Assembly: GCF_000186865.1 (NCBI RefSeq)
Contig: NW_008705564.1
Span: 508,413 to 572,412 of the forward strand
DNA length: 64,000 nt
DNA from: Aureococcus anophagefferens
Taxonomy: Eukaryota > Sar > Pelagophyceae > Pelagomonadales > Pelagomonadaceae
Direction: 5' to 3'
The notes beneath the pieces are model-generated. The model worked only from the letters and a program-made list of their open reading frames with translations. It searched no databases and had not been told where the DNA came from. The translations under genes were made by a program, and so were the position numbers. This document shows, piece after piece, positions 14,901 through 58,406 of this stretch (position 1 is the stretch's first letter; the number at the start of each line of letters is the position of its first letter).

Positions 14901-14924
14901 CGTCGCTGCCTCGCTGCTCGACGG

Positions 14925-15118
14925 CTTCAAGCACCGCGTCAAGTTACGTGCTCGTAGCCCGTCGCGCGGCCCATGGCGGCGACGCGGGCCCAGAAGAGGC
15001 TTGCGGCGTGGTCGTAGACGACTTCAAGCACCGCGTCAAGTTACGTGCTCGTAGCCCGTCGCGCGGCCCATGGCGGCGACGCGGGCCCAGAAGAGGGCCG
15101 CGGCGTGGTCGTAGAGCC
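14925..15118. repeat. 97-bp tandem duplication of the sulfotransferase 3' end
   Basis: The unit at 15022-15118, which holds the last 27 codons and stop of the sulfotransferase gene, is repeated almost perfectly at 14925-15021. Both copies share CTTCAAGCACCGCGTCAAGT and the following 55 or so bases. The extra copy fills the space between that stop and the PPR start at 14900. Confidence 0.9.
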
Positions 15119-27326: not shown

Positions 27327-30300
27327 TTAGATCTTCCGCGCAAAGGTCGAGTTGCGGACCTTGTGGCGCCGCTGGCCGAGGCGCAGGGCGACGGCGTCCA
27401 CGGAGGACCGGGACGCCTGGAGCGCGGACTTCTGGCGCTCCGCGCGCTCCGCGGGCCCCGCCATGTCGCGGTCCGGCCCCGAGGCCTCGAGGTCCGTGAG
27501 CTCGATGTCGGCCTTGGCCCGCCGGTTCGACATGGGGTTCGACACCATCGCCGGCGCGTCCTCGAGCACCCTCTCCCTCGCGGCGAAGTCCGCGCGCGTC
27601 TCGCCCTCCAGCAGGCGCGTCGCCAGCGCCAGGCCCGCGTTGAAGAGCATCCGCAATAAGATGGCCGCGGCGACGACGGCGGCGAAGACGGCCAGCAGCC
27701 GCAGCTCCGGGGAGCCGTCGCCCTCGCCGACGAGCAGAGGCACGTAGCCGACCGCCGTCGCGACGCAGGCCCAGAAGAAGAGCACGCACTCCTCGAAGAG
27801 CGCCTGCTGGACCTCGGAAGGCAGGACGATGAAGAAGGACGCGAGGTAGATGGGCACGCGGAAGGGCAGCGACCTGGGCGGCAAAAGGGTAAGCGCGGAC
27901 CCCAGGAGCGCGGAGAAGATGGCCGCGGTCGCCTCCGGCGACGCCGTCACGCCCTCGCCGAGGCCCCCGGCCTCCAACGCGTCGGCGAGGCCCGCGACGA
28001 GGCCCAGGGCCGTCCGCGCGATTCCCAACTTCAAAGGCTCCTATCTCGTCCGTTTTCCACTCGTTTTGGCTGATATCATGACGAGCGATCATCTCTCGAA
28101 GAGTCCTCGAAGCATCGATGGTGGGACGAACGCGCGCGGAACATTCGCGTCGAAGCGACGTCGAATCACCCGGCGTCGGCCCCGGTGGCGACGGCCGCCA
28201 CGACGCGTCTTCGAGAATTCCGTCCAGATCCGCGGCCTTCTTCGTCGCCGGCGCCGCCGTGCCGAGGCAGTGGGCCCCGACCTGCGTCCCGCCGAGCTCG
28301 TCGCCGTGCCAGAGCGCGAGGTAGAACGTCGAGATCGTCGGGAGGGGCGTCGCGAACGGGTATTCCCGGAGGGACCTGTGTGGAAATCAACCACTGGTTT
28401 GGGGGGTCCCCACCAAACTCTCTATCTCGGTCATATCGAAGTCGATTTGGCTGATTTTTGGACGAATCGATTGCTCTCATCGAGTCCTCGAAGCACAGCG
28501 AAAGAGTCTGGTCCAAATTGTTCGATTACGCGCACATTGAAGTCGGGTTGAAGATTTGATTTCCACACAGGAAGCGACGTCGGATCGTGGAACTTCTCGT
28601 AGTGCTCCTTCAGCAGCCCCGGCAAGAGGACGTCGAACGCCATGATGTAGAGCGTCTCGATCACGCCGTAGATGAGGAGAAACCTAAGTCGTGTTCAGAC
28701 TGCCCTGAACAAGCCACAACATCACAACACTGGAATCAATGTAGCACGTGTACAGGAGCTCCAAAAGCCAGAGCCGCGACGCACGGACGCCGAGCGAACT
28801 CCCGAAGGAGAGGAGGTAGAGCGCCGAGGCCGCGACGCTCGCGACGACGCAGAGCCACGCCGCGACGTACGACCAGAGCGCCGGCGTCGACTTCCGCGCC
28901 TCGTCGTCGTCGACGTTGCCGCGCACCGCGTGCTCGTAGATGAGCCGCTCGACGGTCGAGAAGTGGGACACGCGCTCGAGCTCGTAGAGCCGCGCGGCCC
29001 GCAAAGCTACCGTCTCCGGCCTGGTCTTCGCCTGCAGCTTGCGCAGCTCCGCGTCGTAGTCCGCGGCGATGGCCAGCTGCTCTCGGCAGAGCTCGGCGAC
29101 GTTGGCCTTGAACCGCTCCTCGTCGACGTCCCAGCGCCACCGCTCCTTGGTGGCCGCGCGCAGCCGCGCGAGCCCACGGACTTTGGACGCGTCCCGGGCC
29201 TCCGAGGCGCGCTCCAGCGCCTCGCTGAGCTCCGCGACGCGCCGCGTGACCGCGTCGGCGACCTGCGTGGAAATCAACCACTGGTTTGGGGGGTCCCCAC
29301 CAAACTTCAGAACTCTCTAGCTCGGTCAAATCGAAGTCGATTCGGCTGATTTTTGGACGAATCGATTGCTCTCGTTCAGTTCTCGAAGCACGGTTAAAGA
29401 TTCTGGTCCAAACCGTTCAATTACGGGCACATTGAAGTCGGGTTGAAGATTTGATTTCCACACAGTCGGCGACTTTTGGCCCAATCCTGTCCGCCTCGTC
29501 GTCGAGGTTGAGTTCGAGTTGAGCCTTGGACGCGCCTTGGATCACGCGCGCGAGCGAGCTCCGCCGCCTCCGCAGCCGACCTTCCGCCGAGCCCGCGCCG
29601 ACCTTCTGGCCCGAATCAAAGAGCGCCGCGTGGGGCGTCTTCACTCGTCGCGCGAGCGTTGCGGAGTCGAAGCCACCAGATAAATCCAGTCGCAGCGTTC
29701 TGCCCTTCGGCGTCGTCGCGTTGCCCTTCTTAGCGCTGCGAAGCCGATATGGAAGCGGCGCGACGAGGTACTGGTCGAAGAGCCACTGGAACACGGAAAC
29801 CATGGGCAGCATGAGGGCCAACGCGCACGCGAGGCACAATATGCCTTCGGCGGATGCCAGCGCGTCCGGTCCCGGCTCCCGATACTCGCAGGACCTGTGC
29901 GGTTCAAATCTTCAATCTGACTTGAATTTGCGCGTATTCGACGCAGCGCCGGACCCGGAGCAGGCGTCGAAGGAGCAGGCGCGCCGCGTCCCGAGGCCGC
30001 CGTTTGCGAATTTCAAGCAGCCGCTCTCGCTTCGCTCGTCCTCGCAGCCCGGGTCCGGATAAGCGAGAGAGTCGCCCAACGCGACGCCCGCGGCGAAAAA
30101 GAGGAGCTCGGCGCCTACCAAGACGTCGGTGACGATTTTTCGTCGTTTCCCGGTCAAAATCTCTCGAAAGTTGTCACGGCCGCAGGACGCTGCTCTGCGC
30201 CGAGCTTGAAAATGCGCGCGCGCCGCGTCACGACCTCGCCCCGGACGAACACGATGTTCAGCAGCGTGTGGTTCTTCTTGAGCACCCTCCAGAGCGTGCT

Positions 30301-33300: not shown

Positions 33301-36300
33301 GGCCGACGCCATCGCGGACACGGTGACGGCGAGCGCGTCCTTGCGGAAGAGCTCGACGTTTTTCCCCCCGGCGACGGACAAAATCGGCGGCGCGTCCCCG
33401 CGCAGGGCGACGCAATGCGGGGCAGACGATGACGCGCCGAGGAAGTTCGTCAGATGCAACGTGGCGCAGAAGCTCGTCACACCTACCAAGCATCTCCGTG
33501 ACGATTTTCAATTGTTTTCACCCAAAATCTCTCGCGGCCACAGGACGCTGCCGGACGCCTCTGTCCGCCGCCGCCGCGAGCTGGTCCGCCGCGAATTCGA
33601 GGGCGTCGCCCTCCGCCTCGAAACCGCCGCCGTCGTCCCACGTCACGTTCCACGCGATCGACGCCCAGGCGCGGCCGCCGGAGCCCGTCGAAGAGTCCGA
33701 GTGGAGGACGAGGGCCTCGCATGCGGAGGCGGTGGACGGGCCCGTCACGACGGCGCCCGGTGGAGCCGCGGCCGCGGGCGCCGCGACCTTTACGGAGCCC
33801 GCGCTGTAAGCGTAGCAGTCGCAGCGCTCGCCGGGCACGCAGCCCGCCCGGACGGCGCCCGCCGCCGCAGAAACAACCCCACCGGGCGCGAGAGCCGCGC
33901 CGCTGACCTACCACGTATGTTTGTAACGACTTTTCATCGTGTTCCCAAGGACGCTGCGCGGCTGACCTCCGCGCGGAGCGACGCATCGCTCGTCCAAACG
34001 CAGATCGCGTCTTTTTCACCGTCAAATACCAAAAGATCGGTACAGGGAACGCTGTCGCCGATGACGGCGCCGCCGCGGTCCGTACTCGCCTACCAAGCAT
34101 GACGTTGACGATTTCTCATTGTTTTCCCCAAATCTCTCGAAAATCGTCACGGCCACAGGACGCTGGTACTCGCATTCCAAAAGACCTGGATCTCCGCGCC
34201 CGTCGGCAGAAACGCGGCCGAGGAGACGAAGGGCCGCGGCGCCGACAGCGCCGATTTGGGAACCTTGTCGCAGGGTGTCGCGGTCGGCGCTCCCGTCGGC
34301 TCTATCCCTTGCGTCGGCGGCGACGTCGCGGTCGGCGCTCCCGTCGGCTCGGCCCTGTGCGTCGGAGGCGTCGTCGGCGAAGACGTCGGCGACGACGTCG
34401 GCGCGGGCGACTGCGACGCCGAGGGTTCCGCCGTCTTCCTCGGTAGGGACGGCGACGGCGAGGGTTCCGCGGTCGCCGCGCCCGGACAGGCGCACCGATT
34501 CGAGCCGCAATCCGGGCAGATGCGCTGGTCCGGGCAGTACTGGGCGGGGTCCGTGAGCGTCGGATCGCAGTAGATCGTGGACGTCGGCGACGACGACGGC
34601 GACGGCGAGGGTTCCGCGGTCGCCGCCGGCAGGGACGGCGCGGCGGTCGGCGTCGAGGTCGTCGGCGCGCAGCAGTGCAATATCATCCAGTCGCGTCCGC
34701 CCTGCGGCCAGTCGTCGAGGTCCTCGCCGCATGCCCAGCCGAGCTCGTCGCCGCACGTTCTGCCTGCATCCCAACTGGGGACCTGCAGATCCGCGTCGAA
34801 GCTCGCGCCGGCGCCGCAGAGGCAGGAGCCGAACGCCGTCGGCGCGGGGCTCGTTGTCGGCGCGGGGCTCATCGTCGGCGCGGTCGTCGGCGCGGGCCCG
34901 GCGCAGCCGTTCTCGTGCCAGGCCACCAAGTGGTCGCCCTGGGACGCCGTGAGCGCGTCAACGTCGCCGTCGCCGTCGACGTCGATCGCGAAGACCTCGA
35001 AGATGGTGTCCGAGTGGTCCGTGATGATGTGCTCAGTGAAGTCCTGGCTCCCGTCGTTCTCGAACCACGCGGCCGTGTCGTCGTTCTCCGACGCCGACAA
35101 CACGTCGATCTCCCCGTCGCCGTCGACGTCGATGGCGTAGACGGAGCGGGCGCCGTCCGCGAGCGTCGTGATGATGCGCTCCGTGAAGGCCTGGAACCCG
35201 TCGTTCTCGTACCAGGCGACGGTGTCGTCGTCCTGGGAGGCCGAGAGCACGTCCGCGTCGCCGTCGCCGTCGAGATCGAGAGCGTAGACGGCGTTGGCCC
35301 CCGCGAGCGGCGAGATGACGTGCAAAGAGAACAACACGGCATCTCCGTGCATGTTCTCGTACCAGGCGACCGTCTCATCCTCCCAGGACCCGGCCAGCAC
35401 GTCCGCGTCGCCGTCGCCGTCGACGTCGAGCGCGAAGACGCACCGGGCCCCCATCGCGAGCGTCGTGATGACGTGCTTGGTGAAGGACCTGTGGATCCGG
35501 AGTGATGGAGGAACAAAGTTGCGACGACTCCGGTAGCAGACTCGGCCCCGTCGTTCTCGTACCAGGCGACGGTGTCGTCGCCGCGGGACGCCGACAACGC
35601 GTCGACGTCGCCGTCGCCGTCCAGATCGATCGCGTGCACGTCCCAGGCCTCGTCCGCGGTGTTCGCGATGACGAGCTCCCTGAAGTTCTGGGACCCGTCG
35701 TTCATGTACCAGGCGATCTTGTCGTCCGCGTAGGACGCCGAGAGCACGTCGACGTCGCCGTCGCCGTCCACGTCGACGGCGAAGACCCGGGCCACCCAGT
35801 CCGCGAGCGTCGTGACGACGTGCTGCGTGAAGGATTCCGACCCATCGTTCTCGTGCCACGCGACCGTGTCGTCGGTCTTGGACGCCGACAGCACCTGCGT
35901 GGGCGCGTAGGTCATAGGTTCGTAGGCTCCGGACGAGGCTACGTAGGCGCGTAAGGCGCCTACGTAGCCCGTCAAAAGCGGTGCCTACGTAGGCGCCAGA
36001 GGCGTAGGCGCCTACGTAGGCACCTACGTAGGCGCCAGAGGCTCGAGCCGAGGCTACGTAGCCTCGTAGGCGCCTACGTAGGCACCGACGGAGCGACACT
36101 GGACGACACGTCGACGTCGCCGTCGCCGTCGACGTCGATGGCGAAGACCGAGTAGGCCGCGTAGCACGCGTCCGTGACGACGCGCTCCGCGAAGGAGACG
36201 CTCGCGCAGGCCGCGGGGCACGTCGCCATCGCGCCGCAGGCCGTCGCCGCGCAGGCCGTGGCCAGGAACGTCGTGTCGTCGACGGGCACGCCGCACCAGC

Positions 36301-41977: not shown

Positions 41978-44124
41978 CTAGAGCGCGAGCGCGGCGAACT
42001 TGGCCGTCGCCTTGAGCGTGACGCCGTTGCCGCCGTCCGCGAGCACGGCGCCAGCCGGCGGCTTCGCGGGCGCCGGCGACGCCGAAGACGACGAGCGGCC
42101 CACGGGCACCCAGGCGGCGCCCTTGGCCCGGGCCTCGGCCTCGAGGACGGCGACGAGATCCCCGAGGTGGTCGACGGCGACGTCGACCTGGACGCCGTCC
42201 GCGGGATCCGAGGCGGGGTCCTTGACGAGCATGTCCTTGACCCGGACCTTGCCCACGTCCCACTCGTCCGGCGCGACGAAGGCGACGAGGCGCGCGCCGG
42301 CCCGGTTCGCGAGGTCGAAGGCCTTGCGCGCCTTGCAGGCCTGCAGCGCCGCGTCGACCGTGAGCCCCGCGGACCGCAATTTCGCCGCGACGGCCGCCGC
42401 GGGGCCCTGCATGGCCGCGGAGAAGGGCGCGACGACGACGTCCACGGACGGCCCGAGCTTCGGGAGCAGCCCGTTCTCCTTGAGCAGCTCGACGATGACG
42501 CAGTCGCCGAAGCCGAAGCCCGCGCACGGGATGTCGCACTTTTCTCCCCCGTAGAGCTCGAGCAGCTTGTCGTAGCGGCCGCCGCCACAAATAGCCCGGA
42601 GCTCGCCCTTGCGGTCGAAGGCCTCGAAGACGACGCCCGTGTAGTAGGCCAACCCCCGGACGACGGACGAGTCGAACTGGAGGTAGTCGCCGACGCCGTA
42701 CGAGTCCGCGAGCTCGAAGAGCTGCGCGATCTCCGCGATGGCCGGGTCCGTCATGGGCAGCCCGACGGTCGTGGCCAAATCCGCGACGGACTTGGCCTCG
42801 AGGCAGGCGAGGATGACGTCCGCCGTCGCGGGCGGCAGCGCGAGCGGGTCGTCGCCGGACGTATCGGTTAACATCTCCTTGACCGCGCACGCGCCGATCT
42901 TGTCGAGCTTGTCGATGACGACGCAGACGCGCGCGAACTTGTCGCCGGGCACGCCGGCCTTGGTGATGGCCACGTCCAGGACCTTGCGCGAGTTCACGCG
43001 GACGCCGACCATCTCCGACGTCACGCCCAGCCGCGAGAAGAACCGCGCGACGGCCGCGAGCAGCTCGGCCTCGGCCGTGACGCCGCGCTCGCCCACGATG
43101 TCCATGTTCCACTGGTAGTGCTCGCGCTTGCGGCCGCGCTGCGTCGTCTCGAAGCGCCAGCACTGCGGGATGGAGAACCACTTGAGCGGGAGCGTCGCGC
43201 GGACCTCGCCCGTCGCCTGGGCAGGACAAGGGTGATTCAACGTCGCTTCAACGTGAGTGTTCCGCGCGCGCGCGTTCCGGAAAAAACATCCACGCTTCGA
43301 GACCGTTCCAAGAGATGATCGCTCGTCCAAAAATCAGCCGAAACGAGTGGAAAACGGCCGAGAAAGGAGCCTTTGAAGTTGGGAATTTCGCTCTCTTGTC
43401 CTGCCCCGCCCGTCGCGAGGTTCGTGAGGTTGAGCACCATGCGCGCGAGGGACGGCGTCATCTCGGGCCGCAGGGTCACGCGGGCGCCCTCCTTGTCGAC
43501 GAAGTTGTACATCTGCGACGAGATCTCCTCGCCGGCCTTGCGCTCGTAGAGCTCGACGTGCTCGAGCACGGGCGCGTCGTACTCCTTGAACCCAAACTCC
43601 AGCGCCGTCTCGCGCATGGCGCCGAAGAGCCAGTTCCGCACGCGCATGTCCCCGGGCTCGAAGTCGCGCGTGCCCGACGGCGGGTCGAGCCAGAAGGGCC
43701 GGCTCGCGGACTCCTCCGCGGCCGCCGCCGCCTCCTTCGCCTTCGCGTCCAGGGCCTTCTTGAGCTTGTCCTTCTTGAGGGGGATGGGCTCGGCGAGCGT
43801 CTTGTTGAGCTCGCCGAGGCGCGACAGGACGCCCTCGAGCACGGCGTCCTTGCCCTTCTTCTCCGCGGCCTTGGCGGCCTTGAGCTGCTCGCGCTCCTCG
43901 GCGCTGGGCTCGCCCTTGGGGTTCGCGACGGTCAGCGACGCCCACGCGGCGACCTCGTCGGCCTCCAGCGGGATCTCCGGGCCGCCGCGGCCCATGGGTG
44001 CGGTACGTGCGGCGCGGCGCTGCGAGTTGCGGACGACGACGACGCGAGCGGCAGCGAGGCGTTCGTAAGGCGCTAGCTCAGCTCTTATCAGCGAAGGCAA
44101 GATCGTCTGCAACGAGTGCAACAT
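41978..44124 (-). CDS. HARS: Histidyl-tRNA synthetase, two exons split by an introner
   Basis: Exons 43417-44124 and 41978-43216 join in phase 0 to give 648 residues. Class II motif 1 region: [21 protein letters not shown] and [19 protein letters not shown]. Motif 2: [16 protein letters not shown]...[34 protein letters not shown]. His-specific blocks: [36 protein letters not shown], with motif 3 [13 protein letters not shown], and an anticodon-binding domain (about 540-630). The N-terminus carries a helical linker (about 60-120) like the WHEP region. The start at 44124 gives an organelle-like leader; the ATG at 43995 would give a cytosolic form, so dual targeting is possible. The upstream gene ends only 24 bp before the first ATG. 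Confidence 0.93.
43217..43416 (-). mobile_element. Introner family A in HARS
   Basis: 200-bp intron: an 8-10 bp direct repeat GCGACGGGCG flanks a 190-192 bp element with perfect inverted ends GGGCAGGACAAG / CTTGTCCTGCCC. The 3' splice AG is the last two bases of the element, and the donor is GC, the first two bases of the target. It restores [19 protein letters not shown], the normal HisRS motif 2 lead-in. Confidence 0.95.
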
Positions 44125-44148
44125 GCCGTGCGGCGCGATCGCAAGTTG

Positions 44149-45048
44149 TTACGCCACGGCCGGCGGCATGAGCACGACGTTCTCGGCGCGGCAGGCGATC
44201 GTCCGGCCGTCGACGTCGCCGCCCTCGAGGCGGATACCGTAGCGCTCGCCGCCCCGCTTGGGCAGGGCCACGACCGCGCCGAGGCACCCGTTGAGGTCCG
44301 CGGCCTTGACGAGCCCCGCGACGCGGACGCGCGCGCCGACGGCGAGGGCGGGCTCGGCGGCGACGAGGTTCGCCTGTTCGAGGCTCGCGAGGGGCACGGG
44401 CGCCGGCGGCTCGCCGCCGTCCTCGACGGGGGGTAAGCCGCGGACCATGAAATCCGGCGGCGGCTTCGTCGGCCCCTCCCTGTGCTTCTGGAGCCCGAGG
44501 CGGCTCAGCAGCTCGTCGACGTCGTTTCCGCGCGTGTTGTCGTACTGGCCGACGAGCGCGTCGATGTTGCCGTTGATCGAGCTGACCACGTCGTCGAGCG
44601 GCCGCTCCGCGACGGGGGCGGGCGCGGGCGCGGGCGCGGCCGCGGTCTCCTCCTCGTCGGGCATGGACTCGAGGACGGCGTCGAAGCCCTTGGAAATCTG
44701 CTGCAGCCGCTCCGCGACCGGCGCGGCCGCGGCCGCGGGCGCGGCCGCGGGCGCGGCCGCTGGCGCGGTCTCCTCGTCGTCGTCGTCGGGCATGGACTCG
44801 AGGACGGCGTCGACGCCCTTGGCAATCTGCTGCAGCCCGGCCTCGACGTTCGCCTCCGTGGCGCCCTCGGCTTTGATCTTCTCTTGCATCTCTTCCAGGC
44901 CTTTGAGGACTTTTTGGAGCACCGGATCCTCGGGCATCTTTTTCATGTCGTGGTGCGACTTCCTCTCCGCGATGCCGGCGATGCGCTCCTCGGCGGGCAG
45001 CCGCACGTTCACGGGCGGCCCGCCGGCGGGCGCCTTGTCGATGCCCAT
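44149..45048 (-). CDS. Hypothetical protein with duplicated helical motif and SH3-like C-terminus
   Basis: 299 residues. A charged N-terminal helix (MKKMPEDPVLQKVLKGLEEMQEKIKAEG, about 35-62) is followed by two near-identical units, LQQIAKGVDAVLESMPDDD and LQQISKGFDAVLESMPDEE (about 72 and 114), joined by Ala/Pro linkers. The C-terminal 60 residues (ALAVGARVRVAGLVKAADLNG, then CLGAVVALPKRGGERYGIRL) read as a small beta-barrel of the SH3/KOW kind often found next to MYND or ankyrin modules. No signal peptide. Function unknown. Divergent from the RAD51C-like gene, 82 bp apart. Confidence 0.55.
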   Translation of the reverse strand: MGIDKAPAGGPPVNVRLPAEERIAGIAERKSHHDMKKMPEDPVLQKVLKGLEEMQEKIKAEGATEANVEAGLQQIAKGVDAVLESMPDDDDEETAPAAAPAAAPAAAAAPVAERLQQISKGFDAVLESMPDEEETAAAPAPAPAPVAERPLDDVVSSINGNIDALVGQYDNTRGNDVDELLSRLGLQKHREGPTKPPPDFMVRGLPPVEDGGEPPAPVPLASLEQANLVAAEPALAVGARVRVAGLVKAADLNGCLGAVVALPKRGGERYGIRLEGGDVDGRTIACRAENVVLMPPAVA

Positions 45049-45130
45049 CGTCGCGTTCTTGAATTGGTATTGAATCGAAGGTGCCGCTCGACTCCAGAGT
45101 AGGCATGGCCCTGCCTAAAGGCCCACACTA

Positions 45131-46219
45131 ATGGACGACGACGCCTCCGACAGCAGCGACGGCGACGAGCCGGCGCGCATCCCGTTCGTGGCCTGCGCGC
45201 TGAGCCCGAAGGACGAGGTGCTGCTGGGCCGCGGCGGCTACCGCGACGCGAGCGATTTGGAGGGCGTGAGCTTCCTCGAGCTCGCCGCGGATTTGAAAAT
45301 CTCCGACGACGAGGCGGACCGGTTGCTCGCGGAGGTGCTGCGCGAGGCGGCGCCGCCGACGCCCTACACCATGGCGGAGCTCGCCGCGCGCGAGGCGACC
45401 TTCGTGCCCGCGGTGACGTTCTGCCGCGCGCTCGACGACGCGCTGGGCGGCGGCGCGGTGCCCCGGCGGGTGCTCGAGCTCGTCGGCGGGCCGGGCACGG
45501 GCAAGACGCAGCTCTGCTTCCAGCTCGCCGTCGACGCGGCCATCCCCGCGGCATTCCACGGCTTGGGCTCCGGCTGCGCGTTCGTCGACTGCGACGGAAG
45601 CTTCGCGCCGTCGCGCGTCGCGCGGCTCGCGGGCGAGATGGTCAAGCACGTCAAGCGCCTCGCGCGGCGCAAGCGGCCCCGGGAGGGCGACGGGGACGAT
45701 GAAAACGACGCCGCCGCGCGGCGCGCCGCGGACGCGCTCACCGTCGACGGCGTGCTCGAAAATATAGCGGTGTTCCGCGCGCTGGACCACGGCGACCTCT
45801 TCCACGCCGTCATCCGCGCCGAGGCGCTCGTCGCGTCGGGCGCCTGCAAGTTGTTGATCATCGACAGCGTCGCGGCGCACCTCCGGGCCGCGGACGTGCA
45901 CGTCGGCGTCCGGAGCCGCCTCGTCGCTAGGCTCCACCTGGAGCTCGCGAACGTCGCGATGAAGTACGACGTCGCCGTCGTCGTCACGAACCAGCTCACG
46001 ACGAAGCTCGACGCCGGCGAGAACGTCCTCGCGCCCGCGCTCGGCGACGCGTGGGCGAACGCGGCCGCGCAGAAGCTCCTGCTCAAGGAGCCCGCGGGCG
46101 ATGGCATGCCGCGCACGGCGACGCTCCTCGAGAGCGTCTTCGGGCCCGAGGTCACCGTGCCCTTCGCCGTCGAGGCGCGGGGCGTGCGCGACTACAAGCC
46201 GCCCGCCGCCGCGGGGTAA
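45131..46219 (+). CDS. RAD51C: RAD51 paralogue, RAD51C-like
   Basis: 362 residues. After an N-terminal helix-hairpin-like region (about 25-80) comes the RecA core. It has VTFCRALDDALGGGAVPRRVLELVG, Walker A GGPGTGKTQLCFQLAVDAAIP (about 119-127 for the loop), FVDCDGSFAPSRV in place of the usual TEGSF, Walker B KLLIIDSVAAHLR and VVVTNQLTTKL (about 275). The lead-in TFC-ALDD-LGGG and the sequence after Walker A match RAD51C more closely than RAD51, DMC1 or XRCC3. It would act in homologous recombination and interstrand crosslink repair. An insertion of basic and acidic residues (RRKRPREGDGDDEND) lies after strand 2. Single exon. Confidence 0.85.
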   Translation: MDDDASDSSDGDEPARIPFVACALSPKDEVLLGRGGYRDASDLEGVSFLELAADLKISDDEADRLLAEVLREAAPPTPYTMAELAAREATFVPAVTFCRALDDALGGGAVPRRVLELVGGPGTGKTQLCFQLAVDAAIPAAFHGLGSGCAFVDCDGSFAPSRVARLAGEMVKHVKRLARRKRPREGDGDDENDAAARRAADALTVDGVLENIAVFRALDHGDLFHAVIRAEALVASGACKLLIIDSVAAHLRAADVHVGVRSRLVARLHLELANVAMKYDVAVVVTNQLTTKLDAGENVLAPALGDAWANAAAQKLLLKEPAGDGMPRTATLLESVFGPEVTVPFAVEARGVRDYKPPAAAG

Positions 46220-46283
46220 CACCAAGTCGTTGACGTCAATGTGAAGCCATTAATATTCGAACGGGCTGCCCTTGGAGGTCGCG

Positions 46284-47312
46284 ATGTCTTTCGGGCACGC
46301 CCCGACGGTGCCGCGGCAGCCGCGGCCGCGGACACATTCCCAGTTCGCCGTACCAAAGCAAACGAAGCCGCACGGCAACCCAAAAAAGAAAAAGCACGCG
46401 GACGACGGAGACAACGCGCACTTCTTCGCAGCCCATCACAAAACAGAGGCGGCGTCGCCGGAGAAGCAGGACCAGGCGACGAGCTCGCCGGAGAAGAATC
46501 AAACGACGAGCTCGCCGGAGAAGCCGAGCTCGCCGGAGCCGCCGGCCTCGGAGAAGCCGTCGAGCGCGCCGGACCGCGGCGCCGCGCCGCCGGACGCGCC
46601 GCCGCCGCCGCCGCCGCTCGCGCGCGCGGAGCGCGCCAAGGCGGAGCTCGCCGCCGCGCGGGCCGAGAGCGTGGCCGCGGAGCTCGCGGGCGCGCACGCC
46701 GCGCGGCTCTCGCTCGAGGCCGCGCTCGCGGACGCGCGGCTCGCGCTCAGCGACGCCGAGGCCGACGCCGAGGCCGCGCGGGACCGCGCGGCGGCGGCGG
46801 CGGAGACGGCGGCCGCGGCCGTCGCGGAGCGGGACGCGTCGCGCGTCGAGGTCTTCTCCGCGCGCGCGACGATCCGGTCCCTGACGCTCGAGCGCGACGC
46901 CGCGCGCGCGAAACTCCTCGACGGCAAGGAGAACGACGACGCCGCGCCGGCGAGCGACAAGGCGCAGGCCGCGGCGCGCATCGGCGACCTCTTCAAGCGG
47001 CAGGCCGAGGAGCTGGCGTCCGCGCGCGGCGACAACGACGCGCTCCGATCCGCGGCGCGGATCGCGGACGCGCGCGCGGCCGCGGCGACGTCGGCCGCGG
47101 CGCTCGCCGTCGAGCGCGCCGAGGCGGCGCTCCGGGACGGCACGCGCCGCGAGCGGGTGCGCCACGAGCTCCTGGGCGAGCGGGACCTCTACGCAAAGAA
47201 GCTCGAGATGGAGCTCACGGCGGCCAAGGTCGCCTACGCGCAGCTCGCGACGGACTACGACGTCCACCTCGGCTCCGTCATCCGGAGCGCGAAGACCGCG
47301 CGCGAGCGATAA
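46284..47312 (+). CDS. Hypothetical coiled-coil protein
   Basis: 342 residues from the first ATG at 46284 (MSFGHAPTVPRQPRPRTHSQFAVPKQ). A basic N-terminus is followed by a disordered Ser-Pro-Glu-Lys-rich section with repeated SSPEKxx units (about 55-90) and a Pro run. A long Ala/Glu/Arg coiled coil (about 115-335) follows. I recognise no specific family. The composition fits a cytoskeletal or centrosomal-type scaffold, which is a guess. Its last codons and stop are the first unit of a 22-bp tandem repeat. Confidence 0.55.
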   Translation: MSFGHAPTVPRQPRPRTHSQFAVPKQTKPHGNPKKKKHADDGDNAHFFAAHHKTEAASPEKQDQATSSPEKNQTTSSPEKPSSPEPPASEKPSSAPDRGAAPPDAPPPPPPLARAERAKAELAAARAESVAAELAGAHAARLSLEAALADARLALSDAEADAEAARDRAAAAAETAAAAVAERDASRVEVFSARATIRSLTLERDAARAKLLDGKENDDAAPASDKAQAAARIGDLFKRQAEELASARGDNDALRSAARIADARAAAATSAAALAVERAEAALRDGTRRERVRHELLGERDLYAKKLEMELTAAKVAYAQLATDYDVHLGSVIRSAKTARER

Positions 47313-47393
47313 CGGCCCGGGCAGCTCGCGATAACGACCCGGGCAGCCCGCGATAACGGCCCGGGCAGCTCGCGATAACGACCCGACCGCCCT
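47306..47393. repeat. Four-unit 22-bp tandem repeat containing a stop codon
   Basis: GCGATAACGGCCCGGGCAGCTC-type units begin at 47306, 47328, 47350 and 47372, alternating GGCCC/GACCC. The first unit is the end of the coiled-coil CDS (CGA TAA). The array fills the whole spacer up to the stop of the opposing EF-hand gene at 47392. Confidence 0.9.
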
Positions 47394-49191
47394 AGGAGAG
47401 GCGCACGGGCGCCGCGCTGAGGATCTTGTTGGCGATCTTCTTGCCCTCCTTCGCCTTCATGTGCTCGGCGAGCTGCTCGCCGGCGGACGTCGACTTGAGG
47501 ATCTCGTACATGCCGTCGTCGTCCTGGATGAGCTCCTGGAAGATGTCGACGTACGTGTCCGCGTCGACGCGCGAGTGGCGGTCCTTGCCCACGTTCTCGA
47601 ACATGACGATCAAATCCTCCTCGTCGAGGCCGTGGAGGTCCGCCATGGCCGACGCCAGGTCCTCGACGACGATGGTCCCGTCGTAGGCCGGCGAGTAGAG
47701 CGAGAACATGTTCTTGATCTCGCCGACCTGCGACTGGTCGAACTTGACGACCTGGTGGCCGATCTTGTTCCGCCGCTGGCCGACGTCCTCCCAGTCCGAC
47801 GCGTCCCAGGAGAGCATCTCCTTGATGACGGTCTTGCCGTACTTGTGGTACATGAGGGAGATGAGCTCGCGCCACGTCACGCGGCCGTCGCCGTCCGCGT
47901 CCATCTTCATGAACAGGTCCGTCTGGAAGGGCCTGGGCAGCAAAAGGGTGATTCAACGTCGCTTCAACGTGAGTGTTCCGCGCGCGCGCGTTCCGGAAAA
48001 AGCATCCACGCTTCGAGACCGTTCCGAGAGGCGATCGCTCGTCCAAAAATCAGCCGAAACGAGTGGACAACGGCCGAGAAAGGAGCCTTTGAAGTTGGGA
48101 ATTTCGCTCTCTTTTGCTGCCCTGGGAAGGGCCCGAACTTGGACCCGCCGCCGTACTCGCCCTTGGACGTCTTGTCGTTGGCCGTCATGAACTCCTCCAA
48201 CGGAATATCCCCCGAGCCGTCGACGTCGATGCTGTCGAAGACGTCGCGGAGCATCTTGAGCTCCTTCTTGAGCTCGCGGATGAGCCCCGGGTGCTGCGTC
48301 AGCGTCGACTTGCGCCGCGCGACCTGGCCCGAGTCGACGCGCCGCCGCGGCGACGCCTCCGGCGACGAGTCGCCACCGTCCTTGGCCTCGCTCCGCGACA
48401 CCTGGAGCTTGCCCGCGAGCGAGAATTTCGCCAAAACGCGCTGCATCGCGAGGTCGTTGCGGCAGAAGAGGGCCCACTCGTGGGACGTGATGGTCCGATC
48501 CTTGACGACGGCGTCGATGACGTCGAAGGTCTTGTGGCAGATCGTCTCCACGGTCTCGATGTCGAGCTGGCGGCCGCCCGTCGCCGCGGACATGCCCCGC
48601 ATGGCCGACGCGATCATGATGACGACCTGGGCAGCAAAAGAGTGATTCAACGTCGCTTCAACGTGAGTGTTCCGCGCGCGCGCGTTCCGGAAACCGCATC
48701 CACGCTTCGAGGCCGTTCCGAAAGATGAACGCTCGTCCAAAAATCAGCCGAAACGAGTGGAAAACGGCCGAGAAAGGAGCCTTTGTGAAGTTGGGAATTT
48801 CGCTCTCTTGTGCTGCCCTGATGACGACCTCCTGGAGACTGAGCTCGCCGGAGCAGTCCTCGTCGTAGAGCTCGAAGAGCGCCCGCATCTTCGACGCGGC
48901 GAAGGCGCTCGAGTTGATGAGCGCGACGGCGAAGACCTCGTTGACGTCCGCGAAGCGCCGGTCCGGCGGGCCCTTGGCGAAGAGCTCGAAGAGCTTGCGC
49001 TGGTTCGCGCCCCGGAGCATGACGAAGATCTTGTTGAAGCGCTTCTGGTCCACGCCGGGGTTGCACTCCATCTTCACCCAGCACTCGTGCATGCGCCGCA
49101 CGTCCTCCATCTGCAGCTTCGTGATGGGCTTCGCGTGGGCCAGGATCTCGTCGCCGAGGCTGTCGCGGATCGTGCCCATGTGGGCGCCCAT
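47392..49191 (-). CDS. EF-hand calcium-binding protein with two family A introners
   Basis: Exons 48829-49191, 48133-48626 and 47392-47932 join in phase to give 465 residues from the ATG at 49191. EF-hand loops visible: LYDEDCSGELSLQE (about 115-128, split by an intron), DSIDVDGSGDIPLEEF (about 255-270) and MKMDADGDGRVTWREL (about 295-310), plus a weaker C-terminal pair around DSRVDADTYVDIF. Between them lie helical stretches (LIRELKKELKMLRDVF) and a basic linker. No kinase or membrane domain is seen, so it is a calcium sensor of unknown partner. Divergent from NDK, with about 220 bp between the starts. Confidence 0.85.
47933..48132 (-). mobile_element. Introner family A, second intron of the EF-hand gene
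   Basis: 200 bp, GC-AG. Target duplicate GCCCTTCC; element CAGGGCAGCAAAAGAGAG...CACCCTTTTGCTGCCCAG, 192 bp. Removal joins SKFG to PFQTDLFMKMDADGDG and restores an EF-hand. Confidence 0.95.
48627..48828 (-). mobile_element. Introner family A, first intron of the EF-hand gene
   Basis: 202 bp, GT-AG. Target duplicate GTCGTCAT (12 bp shared counting the flanks); element ends CAGGGCAGCACAAGAG and TTTTGCTGCCCAG. Removal joins SGELSLQE to VVIMIASAMRGM. It carries a 2-bp insertion relative to the other copies. Confidence 0.95.
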
Positions 49192-49409
49192 GGCGGCGCG
49201 GGAACGCCGCCTCCAAAGCACGCCGAGGCCGCCGCGGCCCGCGGCGCGACCGCGACGAGGATGGCTGCCGCGCAGCCCGATCGGTTTCTAGCTCGTGGAT
49301 TGGCGGCATCGTTGCAGGGCATCGTCGGCTTAGAAGGCGCTCTCGCCTGAGGCCCGTGCCGTCCTGAGCTTCGATCCCAAAACATCGCCTAATCGCATCT
49401 CGCACCACC

Positions 49410-49874
49410 ATGGCCGAGTTCAAGACCCTCGAGCGCACCTACATCATGATCAAGCCCGACGGCGTGCAGCGGGGCCTCATCGGCGACATCACGAAGCGCT
49501 TCGAGCAGAAGGGCTTCAAGCTCTGCGCCGCCAAGCTCTACCAGCCGTCCCGCGAGCACATGGAGAAGCACTACGCGGACCTCTCGTCCAAGGGCTTCTT
49601 CAAGGGCATGATCGACTACATGATGACGGGCCCCGTCTTCTGCATGGTCTGGGCCGGCGAGGGCGCCGTCGTCACGGGCCGCAAGATGCTCGGCGCGACG
49701 ATGCCGTCGCAGTCCGAGCCCGGCACGATCCGCGGCGACTACTGCATCCAGGTCGGCCGCAACATCTGCCACGGCTCCGACTCCGTCGAGAACGCGGAGA
49801 AGGAGATCGCGCTCTGGTTCCCCGAGGGCGTCTGCACCTGGACCTCCCACTCCCAGCCCTGGATCTACGAGTAG
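49410..49874 (+). CDS. NDK: Nucleoside diphosphate kinase
   Basis: 154 residues, the standard length. It transfers the gamma phosphate between NTPs and NDPs through a phospho-histidine. Visible: [20 protein letters not shown] (5-24), the Kpn-loop region ([20 protein letters not shown]), [22 protein letters not shown], and the active site [22 protein letters not shown], whose His is at about 119. All catalytic residues are present. No targeting leader, so probably cytosolic. Strong C-ending codon use suggests high expression. Confidence 0.97.
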
Positions 49875-50017
49875 ACCCGCGCGCGCGCCGGCGGGTCCCC
49901 CTCGCCCAAGACGTAAGACACACACCAGCCCTCCGCCGCGCGTGCGCACTACACGGGGCCCCTTCGGCCGGCGGCCGCACTGCTGCACGCAGCCGCACAC
50001 ACAACACAGAGCCCCGC

Positions 50018-50794
50018 TTACTGGACGCGCTGCCGCGCGGCGCCCGCGCGCTCCGCGCGCGCGCTCCGCGCCGCGGCGACGCCGCCGCCGGCGCCCGGGA
50101 CCAGGGGCATGGGCGGGATGGTCGCCTTGGGCGTCGGCGCGAGCGGCGGGCCGCCCAAGTTCGCCTGCTGGACCGCGTGCGCGAGCGCGGCGACCTCCGT
50201 GTCGATGGAGCAGCGCGCGGCGCTGGCCTCGTTCTCGAGGTGGCGCACGCGGCCCACGGCGTCCGCGAGGCTCTTCACCTTCGCCTCGAGGTCGCCGCGG
50301 GCGAGCGCCGCCGCGCGCGCCTCGGCGCGCATGACGTGGAGCACCTTCCCCGACTCGCTGCTTTGCTCCTCGGCGCTCCGGCAGCGCGCCCGCGCCGCGT
50401 CGAGGTCGCCCCGGAGCCGCTCGACGTCGCTCCGCAGCCGCTCCCGCTCGCTCCGGAGGTCGCCCGCCTCGCGGTCCCGCTCCGCCGCCTCGGATTTGAG
50501 CGCGGCGACTTTCGCCTCCGCGGCCTCCTTGGCCGTCTTCTCGCGCAGCATCTGGTCGCCGATGGCGCGCGCCGCCGCCTCAGCGTCGGCGGCGACGGAC
50601 GCCAGGCGCGACTCGGCGCTCGACGCCCGCGCCCGCTCGCGCTCCAGGGCCGCGCTGAGCTGCAGGTTCAGCTGGCGCAGGGCGTCGAGCTCCGCGAGCT
50701 TGCCCTTGTACATCTCCATGGTCTCCGCGTCCCCCGCCGCCTCGCTCATGAGCTGGTTCAGCTGGTCCAGCAGCATGGCGCGGTCCGCGTCCAT
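50018..50794 (-). CDS. Coiled-coil protein, hypothetical
   Basis: 258 residues, almost entirely heptad-rich (LLDQLNQLMSEAAGDAETMEMYKGKLAELDALRQLNLQL, continuing to about residue 200 with EAAERDREAGDLRSERERL). A Pro/Gly/Ala tail follows. No signal peptide. Myosin-tail or SMC-like composition, but no diagnostic motif; function unknown. Convergent with NDK and divergent from the K+ channel gene. Confidence 0.6.
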   Translation of the reverse strand: MDADRAMLLDQLNQLMSEAAGDAETMEMYKGKLAELDALRQLNLQLSAALERERARASSAESRLASVAADAEAAARAIGDQMLREKTAKEAAEAKVAALKSEAAERDREAGDLRSERERLRSDVERLRGDLDAARARCRSAEEQSSESGKVLHVMRAEARAAALARGDLEAKVKSLADAVGRVRHLENEASAARCSIDTEVAALAHAVQQANLGGPPLAPTPKATIPPMPLVPGAGGGVAAARSARAERAGAARQRVQ

Positions 50795-50931
50795 CGTGGG
50801 CGGGCAAGCACCAACAAACTGTCGTCGAGGTAAAGGTGCCGCGTCCTTTCAGGATATCAACGAATGCTGCCCGGGGGCTGCTGGGGGGTGCCGAACGCCG
50901 CCCCGGTTGCGGCCGCGGCGCCGCGGTCGCG

Positions 50932-53174
50932 ATGATGTCGGCGACGACGTCGTTCCGCGTGCCGCGCGACAACGACGGGAACCCGGATTTCACCGAGCGG
51001 GAGACGCGCGACGACCGGTCGCGGGAGGTCGTCGGGCGGCCCACGCTCGGCGACCGATCCAACGAGATCAACAAGCCCCAGAATTTGGCCGACCTCAAGA
51101 ACGAGTTCCAGGAGCGGCCGAGCTACGCGCGCAACCTCTTGACGTCGTTCCTCGTCCTCTACGCGCTCACGGAGTCGCTCGCGGTGACGCTGCGGCGCTT
51201 GGAGCGCCCGAAGGAGAACCGGAGGAACCGAAAGGCGCGCGACTACAACAGATTCCTCAGCGACATCCAGAACACGCTCCTGCGCTACTCCTTCGGCTTC
51301 TACCTGGACGAGTGCGAGGGGTACACCTGCGACGAGTGCGCGGCGAGCCGCGAGACGCCCGACGGCCGGCCGCGCCTCGACGCGTCGCGGGAGTGGGGCG
51401 TCTACCTCAAGCTCAAGGACGAATGGACCGTCCCTTGCCCGCGGGACGCGGGCCTGGACGGCAACGCGACGCGATCGCTCGCGGAGATGGAGGCCGCGTG
51501 GCTCGGCGGCGAGCTCTCGACGCACTGCCGCCTCGTCTGCCCGCTCGCGCTGCCGAAATTCGAGGCCGTCGACGCGTGCCAGGTCCACATGAACACCTTC
51601 GACCAGGCCTGCCTCAACAACACGGCGCCCTGCGAGAACTGCGACCGACTCCGGGGCGACGTCGAGGGCCTCTCGAACGCCATGTTCCCGCGCGATGATC
51701 CCCGGAGGGCGTGGGACAACGCGTTCGTGTACTGGTTCTACCTCCGCTCGGCGGACGACCTGATCCGGGAGGTCACGCACAACTGGCGCCGCGAGAAGTC
51801 CATCTACTTCGCGTTCTCCATCGTCTCGTCCGTGGGCTACGGCGACTTCTCGGTGACGACGCGGGAGGCCAAGTGGATCATCACGATCGTGACCATCCCC
51901 TACATCGCCATCTTCGCCTTTGCTTTGTCGCAGCTCGCCCAGGTCTTCATCTCGCTCCTGACGCAGGCGCTGCTGACCCACGCGCACGCGAACTACGAGA
52001 AGGCCGCGTCGAAGCTCGATCGCCGGCGGTGGAACGCGGTCATCGACCGCATGCTCGAGCGCGACGACGACGGCTGCCTCACGGAGAACCAGTTCGTCGA
52101 GGCGGCGACGGTGTGCGCATTCGGGTTGCCCGAGGGGGAGATGCGGCGGCTCTACCGCCAGCTCGACAGCGACATGAGCGGCCTGCTGGACCGCGACGAG
52201 CTCAGCACGATGATGGACGTGATCTCGAACATCAACAAGGCCAAGGTCGTGAAGATGCGCGCCTACTGGCACCTGCTGGCGCTCCTGTTCCTGCTCGTGC
52301 TGGTCATCGGCGTGGGCATGTTCGCCTACGCCTACGCCATGGGCTGGACCTACGCGGACGCCAGGGCAGCAAAAGAGAGCGAAATTCCCAACTTCAAAGG
52401 CTCCTATCTCGGCCATTTTCCACTCGTTTCGGCTGATTTTTGGACGAGCGATCATCTCTCGGAACGATCTCGAAGCGTGGGTGCTTTTTCCGGAACGCGC
52501 GCGCGCGGAACACTCACGTTGAAGCGACGTTGAATCACCCTTGTGCTGCCCAGGCGGACGCGCTCTACTTCATCGTCGTGACGCTGACGACGGTCGGCTT
52601 CGGCGACTTCGTGCCGAAGACGCACTTCCCGCCCATCATCCTCTGGCTGGCGCACAGCGTCATCGGGCTGGGCATCGTGACGTCCTTCATCTCGGCGATG
52701 CAGGACCTCGGCATCAACCAGCGACGGCTGGCGAAGCTGTCGAACGAGCTCCTCAAGCTCCACGTCGTCGCGCGGCCCCACGCGGAGCACGACGGCATCC
52801 GCCGGCAGCTCTGGAACGATCTCAAGGGCGGCTACGAGAAGGTCGGGCACCTCGTGTCCAAGGACCTGGAGCAGGCGAAGCAGATCACGCCCGTCTTCAA
52901 ATCGTCGGCCGCGTGGGGCGACGTCCGCCGCGCGAGCCTCGAGCCGGCGACCAAGGTCGCGCCGGCCCTCGTCACCGTCGCCGCGGCGTCGCGCGCCGCG
53001 GCCTACGAGGCCAAGGACGACGACGGCGCCGACGCGGCCGTCGGCGGCGGCCCGGGCCGGCCCGACGGCGACGACGGCCTCCTCTACGACGCGCGCTCGC
53101 GGACCTGGGTCGACCCGGACGCCGCCTTCCACGTGCGCAAGCGGGGCGCGCCGCGGCGCCGGCGGCGATCGTAA
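50932..53174 (+). CDS. Two-pore potassium channel with EF-hands between the pores
   Basis: Exons 50932-52353 and 52554-53174 join in phase 0 to give 680 residues. TM1 (NLLTSFLVLYALTESLAV, about 65-82) is followed by a large Cys-rich extracytoplasmic loop (about 110-245), pore 1 filter SSVGYGDFS (about 305) and TM2. Next comes a cytosolic EF-hand pair (DRMLERDDDGCLTENQFVEAA, then YRQLDSDMSGLLDRDELS, about 375-425), TM3 (LLALLFLLVLVIGVGMFAYAYAM), pore 2 filter LTTVGFGDFVP (about 487) and TM4. A long cytosolic tail follows. Both filters are TxGYG/TxGFG type, so K+ selectivity is expected. Plant TPKs carry EF-hands at the C-terminus; here they sit between the pores. The introner lies between TM3 and pore 2. 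Confidence 0.88.
52354..52553 (+). mobile_element. Introner family A in the two-pore K+ channel gene
   Basis: 200 bp, GC-AG. Perfect 8-bp target duplicate GCGGACGC at 52354 and 52554; element CAGGGCAGCAAAAGAGAG...CCTTGTGCTGCCCAG, 192 bp. Removal joins AMGWTY to ADALYFIVVTLTTVGFGD. Same orientation to transcription as the other family A copies, although this gene is on the opposite strand. Confidence 0.95.
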
Positions 53175-57315: not shown

Positions 57316-58210
57316 ATGATGAAATGCACGCTCTTCATCGCCGTCGTCCTCTCATCCTTCACGTCAGCCGGCGCCGCCGCCGCGAAAGCTTCGCTCCGAG
57401 CGTCGCGCACGCTTGAAGAAGACTGCAATAGTCAGCGCCTTTGAAGCGAGCCTTTGAAGCTGAGCCCGAAATACCTTGCTCGCTGCTAGGTACGGACTCG
57501 ACGACGTGGTATTGGAAGAAATCGAAGCAGACGTGTGCGTGGCTCGCGAAGAAGACGAAGAAGTGCGAGAAGGCTGGCGGCGACGTACATTGCCCTCAGA
57601 CGTGCGGGACGTGCAGCGATGATGCCGACGGTGACGACGCCTCCGGCTGCGCCGCCGATTCCACGACTTGGTACTGGAAGAAGTCGAACAAGGATTGCGA
57701 TTGGGTGTCCAAGAAAAACAAGTGCACAAAAATCGACGGCGCGGCCGAGAACTGCCCGTCGGCGTGCTGTACCGATGCCGAGAAGGAGGCCGAAGACGAG
57801 GCCGAGGACGAGGCCGAGGACGAGGCCGAGGACGAGGCCGAGGACAGGCCGAGGACCGAAGACGAGGCCGAGGACGAGGCCGAGGACGAGGCCGAGGACG
57901 AGTGCCGAGGACGGTGGACGAGGCCGAGGCCGAAGACGAGGCGGAGGCCGAGGACGAGGCCGAGGACGAGGCCGAGGACGAGGCCGAGGACGAGGCCGAG
58001 GACGAGGCCGAGGACGAGGCCGAGGACCGTGACGAGGCCGAAGACGAGGCCGAGGACGAGGTCGAGGACGAGGCCGAGGACGGTGACGAGGCGGAGGACG
58101 AGGCCGAGGCCGAAGACGAGGCGGAGGCCGAGGACGAGGCCGAGGACGAGGCCGAAGACGAGGCAGAGGACGAGGCCGAGGACGAGGCCGAAGACGAGGC
58201 GGAAGACTAG
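57316..58210 (+). CDS. Secreted Cys-rich protein with acidic Glu-Ala-Glu-Asp repeat tail, frame-slipped
   Basis: Exon 1 57316-57430 (signal peptide MMKCTLFIAVVLSSFTSAGA) joins in phase over a 59-bp GT-AG intron (57431-57489) to exon 2 at 57490. Two copies of a Cys-rich module follow: DSTTWYWKKSKQTCAWLAKK...CEKAGGDVHCPQTCGTC and DSTTWYWKKSNKDCDWVSKK...CPSACC. This module is frequent in secreted stramenopile proteins of unknown role. The tail is a 12-bp repeat (GAGGCCGAGGAC; Glu-Ala-Glu-Asp) from about 57785 to 58206. At about 57901 an extra T shifts the frame, so the acidic reading continues in the next frame and ends at 58210. Without correction the tail is Arg/Pro and ends at 58379. Allelic slippage or a broken gene. 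Confidence 0.6.
57785..58206 (+). repeat. 12-bp coding minisatellite GAGGCCGAGGAC
   Basis: About 33 degenerate units, with GAAGAC, GCGGAG and CGTGAC variants and two unit-phase breaks (about 57847 and 57901). Confidence 0.95.
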
Positions 58211-58406
58211 GGAGTATGTCCGCCCTCGCCACCCCCACGACCAACCTCCGCCGCGACGGCTAGGGGGCGGCCTCCGGCCGCCGCCTGGCTCGGTTCACCG
58301 AGGTACCCCGCGAACCCCCCTGGATAATTCTGAAGGGCAAGCGGCTGTGTTGAGGTCCCTGTTGAAGTGCAAGGTTTGAGGTTGAAGTCCAAGTTGAAGC
58401 GGCCTT

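Follow-up and report, generated by a model that had tools for sequence, protein, structure and literature searches.

Inverted-repeat elements within three genes of Aureococcus anophagefferens belong to a dispersed family of probable introners with bodies in both orientations

The stretch of Aureococcus anophagefferens DNA analysed here, termed the window (64,000 nucleotides; contig NW_008705564.1, forward-strand positions 508,413 to 572,412), carries four copies of one element, family A, distributed over three genes: HARS, an EF-hand gene and a K+ channel gene. The element is 192-194 bp long and of the terminal inverted repeat (TIR) type. All four copies proposed in the initial annotation were located by sequence at the following positions, each with a target-site duplication (TSD).

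43217..43416 (-), family A intron of HARS, 200 bp, GC donor, CAG acceptor, class I; element 43217-43408, TSD GCGACGGG at 43409-43416 (sense 5' copy) and 43209-43216
47933..48132 (-), first of the two listed family A introns of the EF-hand gene, 200 bp, GC donor, CAG acceptor, class I; element 47933-48124, TSD GCCCTTCC at 48125-48132 and 47925-47932
48627..48828 (-), family A intron of the EF-hand gene, 202 bp, GT donor, CAG acceptor, class I; element 48627-48820 (194 bp), TSD GTCGTCAT at 48821-48828 and 48619-48626
52354..52553 (+), family A intron of the K+ channel gene, within the second pore, 200 bp, GC donor, CAG acceptor, class I; element 52362-52553, TSD GCGGACGC at 52354-52361 and 52554-52561

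The 8-bp duplicates flank all four elements on either side, and the proposed intron sizes of 200, 200, 202 and 200 bp were reproduced as TSD plus element. Two parts of the earlier description require correction. The window copies, described as nearly identical, in fact display pairwise identities of 93-96%, and their inverted ends constitute a genuine TIR but not a perfect inverted repeat, since CAG is read at both sense ends and the penultimate base thus spoils the symmetry. The HARS copy is an exception, displaying CGG at its sense 5' end where the other window copies read CAG, and the TIR variant GGGCAGGA replaces GGGCAGCA at both of its termini.

Removal of TSD plus element rejoined a conserved protein in HARS, regained one in the EF-hand gene and joined the pore sequence of the K+ channel, in agreement with the proposal that the elements make introns in three genes. 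The reading frames of HARS and the K+ channel are intact only with the elements removed. The HARS protein is 100% identical to an A. anophagefferens record across two thirds of its length, and in three A. anophagefferens HARS gene models the following exon begins precisely at the CAG of the element. Insertion is predicted from the sequence to add 0 bp to the transcripts of the three window genes.

Family A, whose TIR core is GGGCAGCA/TGCTGCCC, is dispersed throughout the genome, as a search for further copies revealed. The pattern GGGCAGCA-N165..190-TGCTGCCC identified 558 exact element cores in the 49-Mb genome against 11 for a control pattern, and CAGGGCAGCA-N165..180-TGCTGCCCAG occurred 464 times against 0 for its control; these counts are therefore not attributable to chance. 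Individual reading of 112 copies, each with its own TSD or flanks, revealed AG at exactly one terminus in 112/112, a property also displayed by all 50 copies retrieved irrespective of their ends. The duplicates match at 8/8 positions in 73/92 copies and at 7/8 in 9/92, and begin with GC or GT in 86/92 (left duplicate) and 91/92 (right duplicate), compared with a background of 0.20. GC constitutes the majority of donors in this 92-copy set. Predominance of GC donors is unusual, and such donors seem to lead public gene models astray in this bloom-forming alga. Median nearest-neighbour divergence between copies is 2.1%, which, together with the well-matched TSDs, makes the proposed recent gain reasonable. 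Exact body words were absent from IMG/VR (words of 24 and 23 bases) and from GTDB genomes (24-base word), weak evidence against other hosts, as these exact searches may pass over near relatives of the window's genome.

Frame continuity was assessed, with upstream and downstream coding frames called separately, in the 90 of 112 copies that had sufficient flank. Following removal, the frame was continuous in 84/90 copies, compared with 2/87 for random 200-bp removals, while two of the 90 (L011 and L019) were left without a decision. The coding strand coincided with the spliceable strand in 90/90 joined sequences. None of the 90 copies tested lies in non-coding DNA, though blind insertion predicts that some would; the coding-only distribution may result from selection, the genome being compact, and targeted insertion is a possible alternative.

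Set beside the TSDs, TIRs, positions, restored frames, orientation counts and copy number read directly from the DNA, the most probable reading (about 94%) is that the copies are introners, short non-autonomous DNA transposons turned into spliceosomal introns at their landing sites. It is supported by the conserved protein joins, the genome-wide dispersal and the excess of continuous frames over controls, while splicing of the introners from transcripts is predicted from protein continuity. Insertion, presumably driven by a transposase, would duplicate 8 bp at the target site. The donor (GC or GT start) would come from the upstream duplicate and the acceptor from the downstream TIR, where it is composed of CAC, a pyrimidine-rich run and a terminal CAG; the A of the CAC is possibly the branch point. 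Excision of the element with one duplicate would give back the original codons, and unspliceable copies would disappear, selection probably acting as the filter. As the acceptor signal lies within an inverted repeat, either end would be usable as acceptor and the body could therefore lie in both orientations. A hairpin acting as a splicing aid was considered and set aside, since the K+ channel intron, folded together with flanks of 10 bases, did just modestly better than shuffles (z -1.77; 11/200 shuffles equally good).

An RNA route, in which spliced introner RNA returns to genes via reverse splicing and reverse transcription, would be compatible with the sense-strand placement of the tested copies within coding DNA; it is very improbable, as the site-private 8-bp TSDs and the TIRs indicate DNA insertion and reverse splicing would bring along the donor's own first 8 bases. 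That the copies are unspliced insertions in decaying genes, as the prevalence of GC donors might suggest, is less credible still, given HARS and K+ channel frames that are intact only after removal, the 84/90 copies in frame and full-length public proteins that run continuously across the insertion sites.

The 8-bp TSD of the present element and its ends starting CAGGG broadly fit DNA transposons of both the hAT and P types; its 3' end, however, is CAG where a perfect repeat would give CTG. The transposase with the same terminal repeats that the initial annotation suggested looking for was not found by profile searches (PF05699, PF14372, PF18758, PF10551 and PF21787). The hAT transposase profiles PF05699 and PF14372 (dimerisation or RNase-H domain) had no matches in the genome, nor in the control genomes, and the KDZ profile PF18758 was likewise silent in both, while the MULE profile PF10551 had none in the genome but matched in three control genomes. 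One interrupted match to the P-type profile PF21787 was identified (C25:178372-178818, at locus L111). The family TIR is absent from the examined part of this locus, outside which the upstream side falls, and the match showed no link to the family ends in that part.

The single orientation relative to transcription noted initially holds for the four window copies but not for the family, in which 20/112 copies have the body reversed (class II). The termini of class II copies still read CA...AG in sense, with a few 5' variants (CG, AA or GC), and exact pattern search identified no symmetric ends of the form CA...TG or CT...AG. A second family, B, has TIRs unlike those of family A, shares with it a 17-bp core present in 2,110 copies, and likewise occurs in both orientations. 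The window contains two family B elements and one sequence related to family A:

29263..29465 (-), family B element, 203 bp, TIR CTGYGTGGAAATCA, sense TSD GTCGCCGA, body reversed relative to transcription; 17-bp-core region matching family A with at most one mismatch
28376..28570 (-, a weak strand call, with a stop persisting in the joined frame), older family B element, 195 bp, TIR CTGYGTGGAAATCA, TSD matching at 6/8 positions
28016..28171 (+, the strand of the body and not of a gene), degenerate sequence related to the family A body, ends not intact, E 1.6e-39

Three origins of the two classes were weighed. In the first, slightly more probable than not, class I and class II ends descend from two ancient sources that each differ by one base from a perfect-TIR parent, now extinct, and bodies have since been mixed between dispersed copies by gene conversion or template switching. 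Variable sites look mosaic in several copies, linkage declines with distance (permutation p 0.025) and a single supported part of the tree contains 12/20 class II copies, all consistent with this origin; the four-gamete measure, in contrast, displays no distance effect (p 0.54), and the perfect-TIR parent is absent in the exact pattern search. Repeated recruitment of either end as acceptor, a CA...TG source acquiring AG several times independently, is possible though rather unlikely. One change leads from CA...TG to either class, a single class II clade is rejected (p-AU 0.0046), at least five label changes are forced on the tree, and the near-identical copies L097 (class I) and L032 (class II) differ at three alignment columns, two of which are end bases. 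This origin nevertheless requires CA...TG sources, of which the exact pattern revealed none, and recombination inflates tree-based change counts. Inversion of the body in place, through recombination between both TIRs, would preserve the outer CA...AG while the body flips, as observed; it is improbable and disfavoured by the inner TIR, where an inverted common class I copy predicts AGAG on the left and GGTG is present at either side in 17/20 class II copies.

Huff, Zilberman and Roy (2016, Nature 538:533) reportedly described introner elements of A. anophagefferens, and the present copies are thus of an already known kind. They resemble published introners of this alga, as far as the accessible portions of the reports describe them, in intron size (~200-210 bp; PMC9481584), direct repeats and constant-length TIRs (PMC7789003) and mRNA length unchanged on insertion, as in earlier introner families (PMC9860276); they differ in that most donors are GC. 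According to parts of PMC9860276, the family 4 introner of Aureococcus sp., from the same genus, also has an 8-bp TSD (Fig. 2F legend) but carries both splice sites and lengthens the transcript by 12 bp, whereas the donor of the present element would come from the TSD. The introner of another organism, Symbiodinium microadriaticum, has TIRs in common with it (Fig. 2B legend) and a TSD of 4 bp rather than 8 bp. Reversed introners were foreseen in that source, as the portion of its methods consulted allows opposite-orientation insertion. Neither use in both orientations nor the CA...AG rule appears in the accessible portion of the introner literature, nor does the shared core, and Huff et al. 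2016 may report them; two-way use of one element body may be undescribed.

Tentatively, and with less than even confidence, the family may be viewed as an orientation-free intron maker, in which ends and body are separable modules and the shared core, because it is kept in both orientations, would act at the DNA level. The 3' splice site would then form at whichever end is downstream. In either body orientation the terminal bases would be set by the direction in which the gene is transcribed, reading CA...AG in sense with few variants at the 5' end, and splicing and transposase would shape the ends while bodies are exchanged. Introners are a documented means of rapid and numerous intron gain in eukaryotes. 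With hundreds of copies bearing readable TSDs, the rules of intron creation become countable, namely which targets survive, which end is chosen as acceptor and what a donor minimally needs. TIR transposons may be suited to intron making because an inverted repeat with an acceptor holds that acceptor twice.

Four copies of the 192-194 bp family A introner were read in the window where the initial annotation had placed them, and the intron lengths of 200, 200, 202 and 200 bp and the 8-bp target duplicates (TSDs) that it gave were likewise borne out. The copies had been described as nearly identical; their likeness is high, with pairwise identities of 93-96%, and that wording was a little strong.

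43217-43416, (-) strand, HARS introner, TSD GCGACGGG, intron 200 bp
47933-48132, (-) strand, EF-hand gene introner, TSD GCCCTTCC, intron 200 bp
48627-48828, (-) strand, EF-hand gene introner, TSD GTCGTCAT, intron 202 bp
52354-52553, (+) strand, K+ channel introner, TSD GCGGACGC, intron 200 bp

The sense layout of these copies is TSD8-CA-GGGCAGCA...TGCTGCCC-AG-TSD8, from which the HARS copy departs with a 5' end of CG and GGGCAGGA at both ends. PMC9860276, PMC9481584 and PMC7789003 already describe introners bearing TSDs and TIRs in A. anophagefferens and its genus; the introner finding itself is soundly a re-discovery. No account of orientation-free use, of the CA...AG rule or of the common core was found in the literature searched, the key 2016 paper lying outside its reach.

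The 49.05-Mb, 86-contig assembly containing the window was searched with exact patterns, which miss diverged copies, and GGGCAGCA-N165..190-TGCTGCCC matched 558 places, versus 11 for the control pattern. With CAG...CAG ends and N165..180 spacing there were 464 matches (control 0), and exact patterns of the same spacing ending in CAG...CTG, a perfect inverted repeat, or in CTG...CAG gave none genome-wide. The window and 110 fetched loci yielded 112 distinct copies, extraction requiring near-intact TIR cores. Loci L031-L080 are the first 50 places of the N165..190 pattern, taken irrespective of outer ends; the remaining loci were chosen by similarity or by CAG ends. AG is present at exactly one end in 112/112 copies, and in 50/50 of the end-unselected set. 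TSDs and donors were counted in 92 copies, of which 81 begin in the sense direction with CA, eight with CG, two with AA, one with GC and none with CT. The two TSD copies agree at 8/8 positions in 73, at 7/8 in nine and at 6/8 or fewer in ten. The left TSD copy starts with GC in 51, GT in 35 and another dinucleotide in six, the right with GC in 54, GT in 37 and GA in one; set against background rates of 0.149 for GC and 0.050 for GT, these counts show that GT is favoured over GC only mildly.

Coding context was assessed for the 90 of 112 copies flanked on each side by 270 bp or more, strand and frame being called by a codon model for which five genes of the window served as the training set. 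The coding strand is the spliceable strand in 90/90 joined sequences (89/90 from the upstream flank alone, 90/90 from the downstream). Separately called upstream and downstream frames are continuous in 84/90 copies, versus 2/87 random 200-bp removals, and the joined frame lacks a stop in 85/90. Among the six frame exceptions, L016, L056 and L075 fit once shifted by 1-2 nt, L085 has its TSD in place (8/8), and no fit was found for L011 and L019. By the same model, a rough one, about 67% of the window's 150-bp steps have a coding look. Blind insertion without selection, in a genome assumed to be 90% coding, would give 90/90 with a probability near 8e-5. Copies landing in non-coding DNA may also be lost, or the element may insert at preferred targets.

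In the protein database searches for HARS and the K+ channel, scoring was confined to the candidates with the most words in common, and for HARS the best 120 of 5,429 were listed. After element removal the K+ channel joins as ...GWTYADALYFIVVTLTTVGFGD..., running through the second pore, and aligns with solved K+ channels across the junction, which is uninterrupted in the database proteins P0009 (97% identical) and P0010 (50%). The HARS junction is continuous in P0042, P0043, P0048 and P0050, and P0002 and P0003, 74 and 73% identical to P0001, read through both EF-hand gene sites; P0001, listed at 100% identity, differs by eye from the spliced protein at one residue. Left unspliced, the HARS and EF-hand frames meet stops. 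At the sequence level, element removal is seen to restore the proteins, and the matched records may be transcript-derived or gene models.

Copies with the body oriented as in the window (class I) number 92, and those with it reversed relative to transcription (class II) 20; the end-unselected 50 comprise 37 and 13, and 23 of 100 listed CAG...CAG N165..180 matches were reversed by eye. In a tree built from the element bodies minus their TIRs, where most inner branches are weak and the bootstrap had not settled, the class label needs eight changes, at least five of them forced by well-supported branches. A single class II clade was rejected (log-likelihood 64.6 lower, p-AU 0.0046); the label is nonetheless clustered (0/500 shuffles as low). 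Only three alignment columns separate the class I copy L097 from the class II copy L032, two being the penultimate bases of both ends. Several family A copies have a mosaic look. Linkage declines with distance (p 0.025), the four-gamete measure has no distance effect (p 0.54), and all four combinations occur in 317/496 site pairs. Copies likely exchange sequence by conversion or template switching, which weakens tree counts of class switches. Reversed reading puts the inner left TIR just upstream of the acceptor, where GGTG becomes CACC, with an A, and AGAG becomes CTCT, without one. GGTG stands on both sides in 17/20 class II versus 5/92 class I copies, a contrast inflated by relatedness among copies. 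The TIR may hold the branch-point A, which would fit the lower number of class II copies.

The core extends beyond family A. Its 17-mer GGCTGATTTTTGGACGA occurs 2,110 times in the genome (control 0), and in the 345 kb examined, allowing one mismatch, 105 matches to the core belong to family A and 29 fall outside it. Prominent among the 29 is a second TIR family, family B (CTGTGTGGAAATCA), whose exact pair TGTGGAAATCA...TGATTTCCACA was matched at 223 places (control 0). Two introners of this family, with other TIRs and the family A core region, lie in the window.

28376-28570, family B introner
29263-29465, family B introner

Fourteen of the 29, hand-picked for clear ends and then strand-tested, have the GY start and CAG end on the better-coding strand in 14/14, the calls for L055 (short flank) and window 28376 (stop present) being weak. 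In the 11 hand-picked elements with family B-type ends, body orientations split 4 and 7. Some TIR variants alter both ends jointly, and the four copies with GGGCAGGA at both ends occupy four separate places on the family A tree. Matched variants were seen in L012, L053, L076 and the window HARS copy (GTGTGG/CCACAC, GTGCCG/CGGCAC, GAATTC, GGGCAGGA), with the core unchanged.

The window also holds a worn family A-like body (28016-28171) with TIR-like CTGGGCGGCAAAAGGGT ~140 bp off at 27875, and the span 27875-28171 looks as if rearranged. A 97-bp tandem duplication, 96% identical, lies at 14920-15113 and modules repeat with a period of ~147 bp at 34892-36194. Short-period arrays at 26889-27306 and 57722-58265 (12-bp period in the second) suggest repetitive coding sequence.

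No transposase was linked to the elements; a transposase gene with the same terminal repeats was among the checks that the initial annotation proposed. The single P-type transposase-like match, L111:1501-1947 (G000:C25:178372-178818), has in-frame TAG stops, and the examined part of L111 showed no family ends. A worn family A-like body ~350 bp downstream (E 3.7e-19) is weak evidence of a link to introners, because old bodies are frequent.

Three HARS models in public records, P0044, P0045 and P0047, restart exactly at the CAG acceptor of the introner at 43217-43416 and miss the coding sequence upstream of it. P0047, named Aureococcus anophagefferens, is 100% identical across 66% of the HARS query (best 120 of 5,429); P0044 and P0045, which carry this name too, skip different stretches. 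The window is taken to come from A. anophagefferens or from a very near relative. VLNLTNL is absent from P0044, which fits the picking of a GT donor that lies upstream of the real GC donor by 21 nt. Public gene models may be truncated by GC-donor introners.
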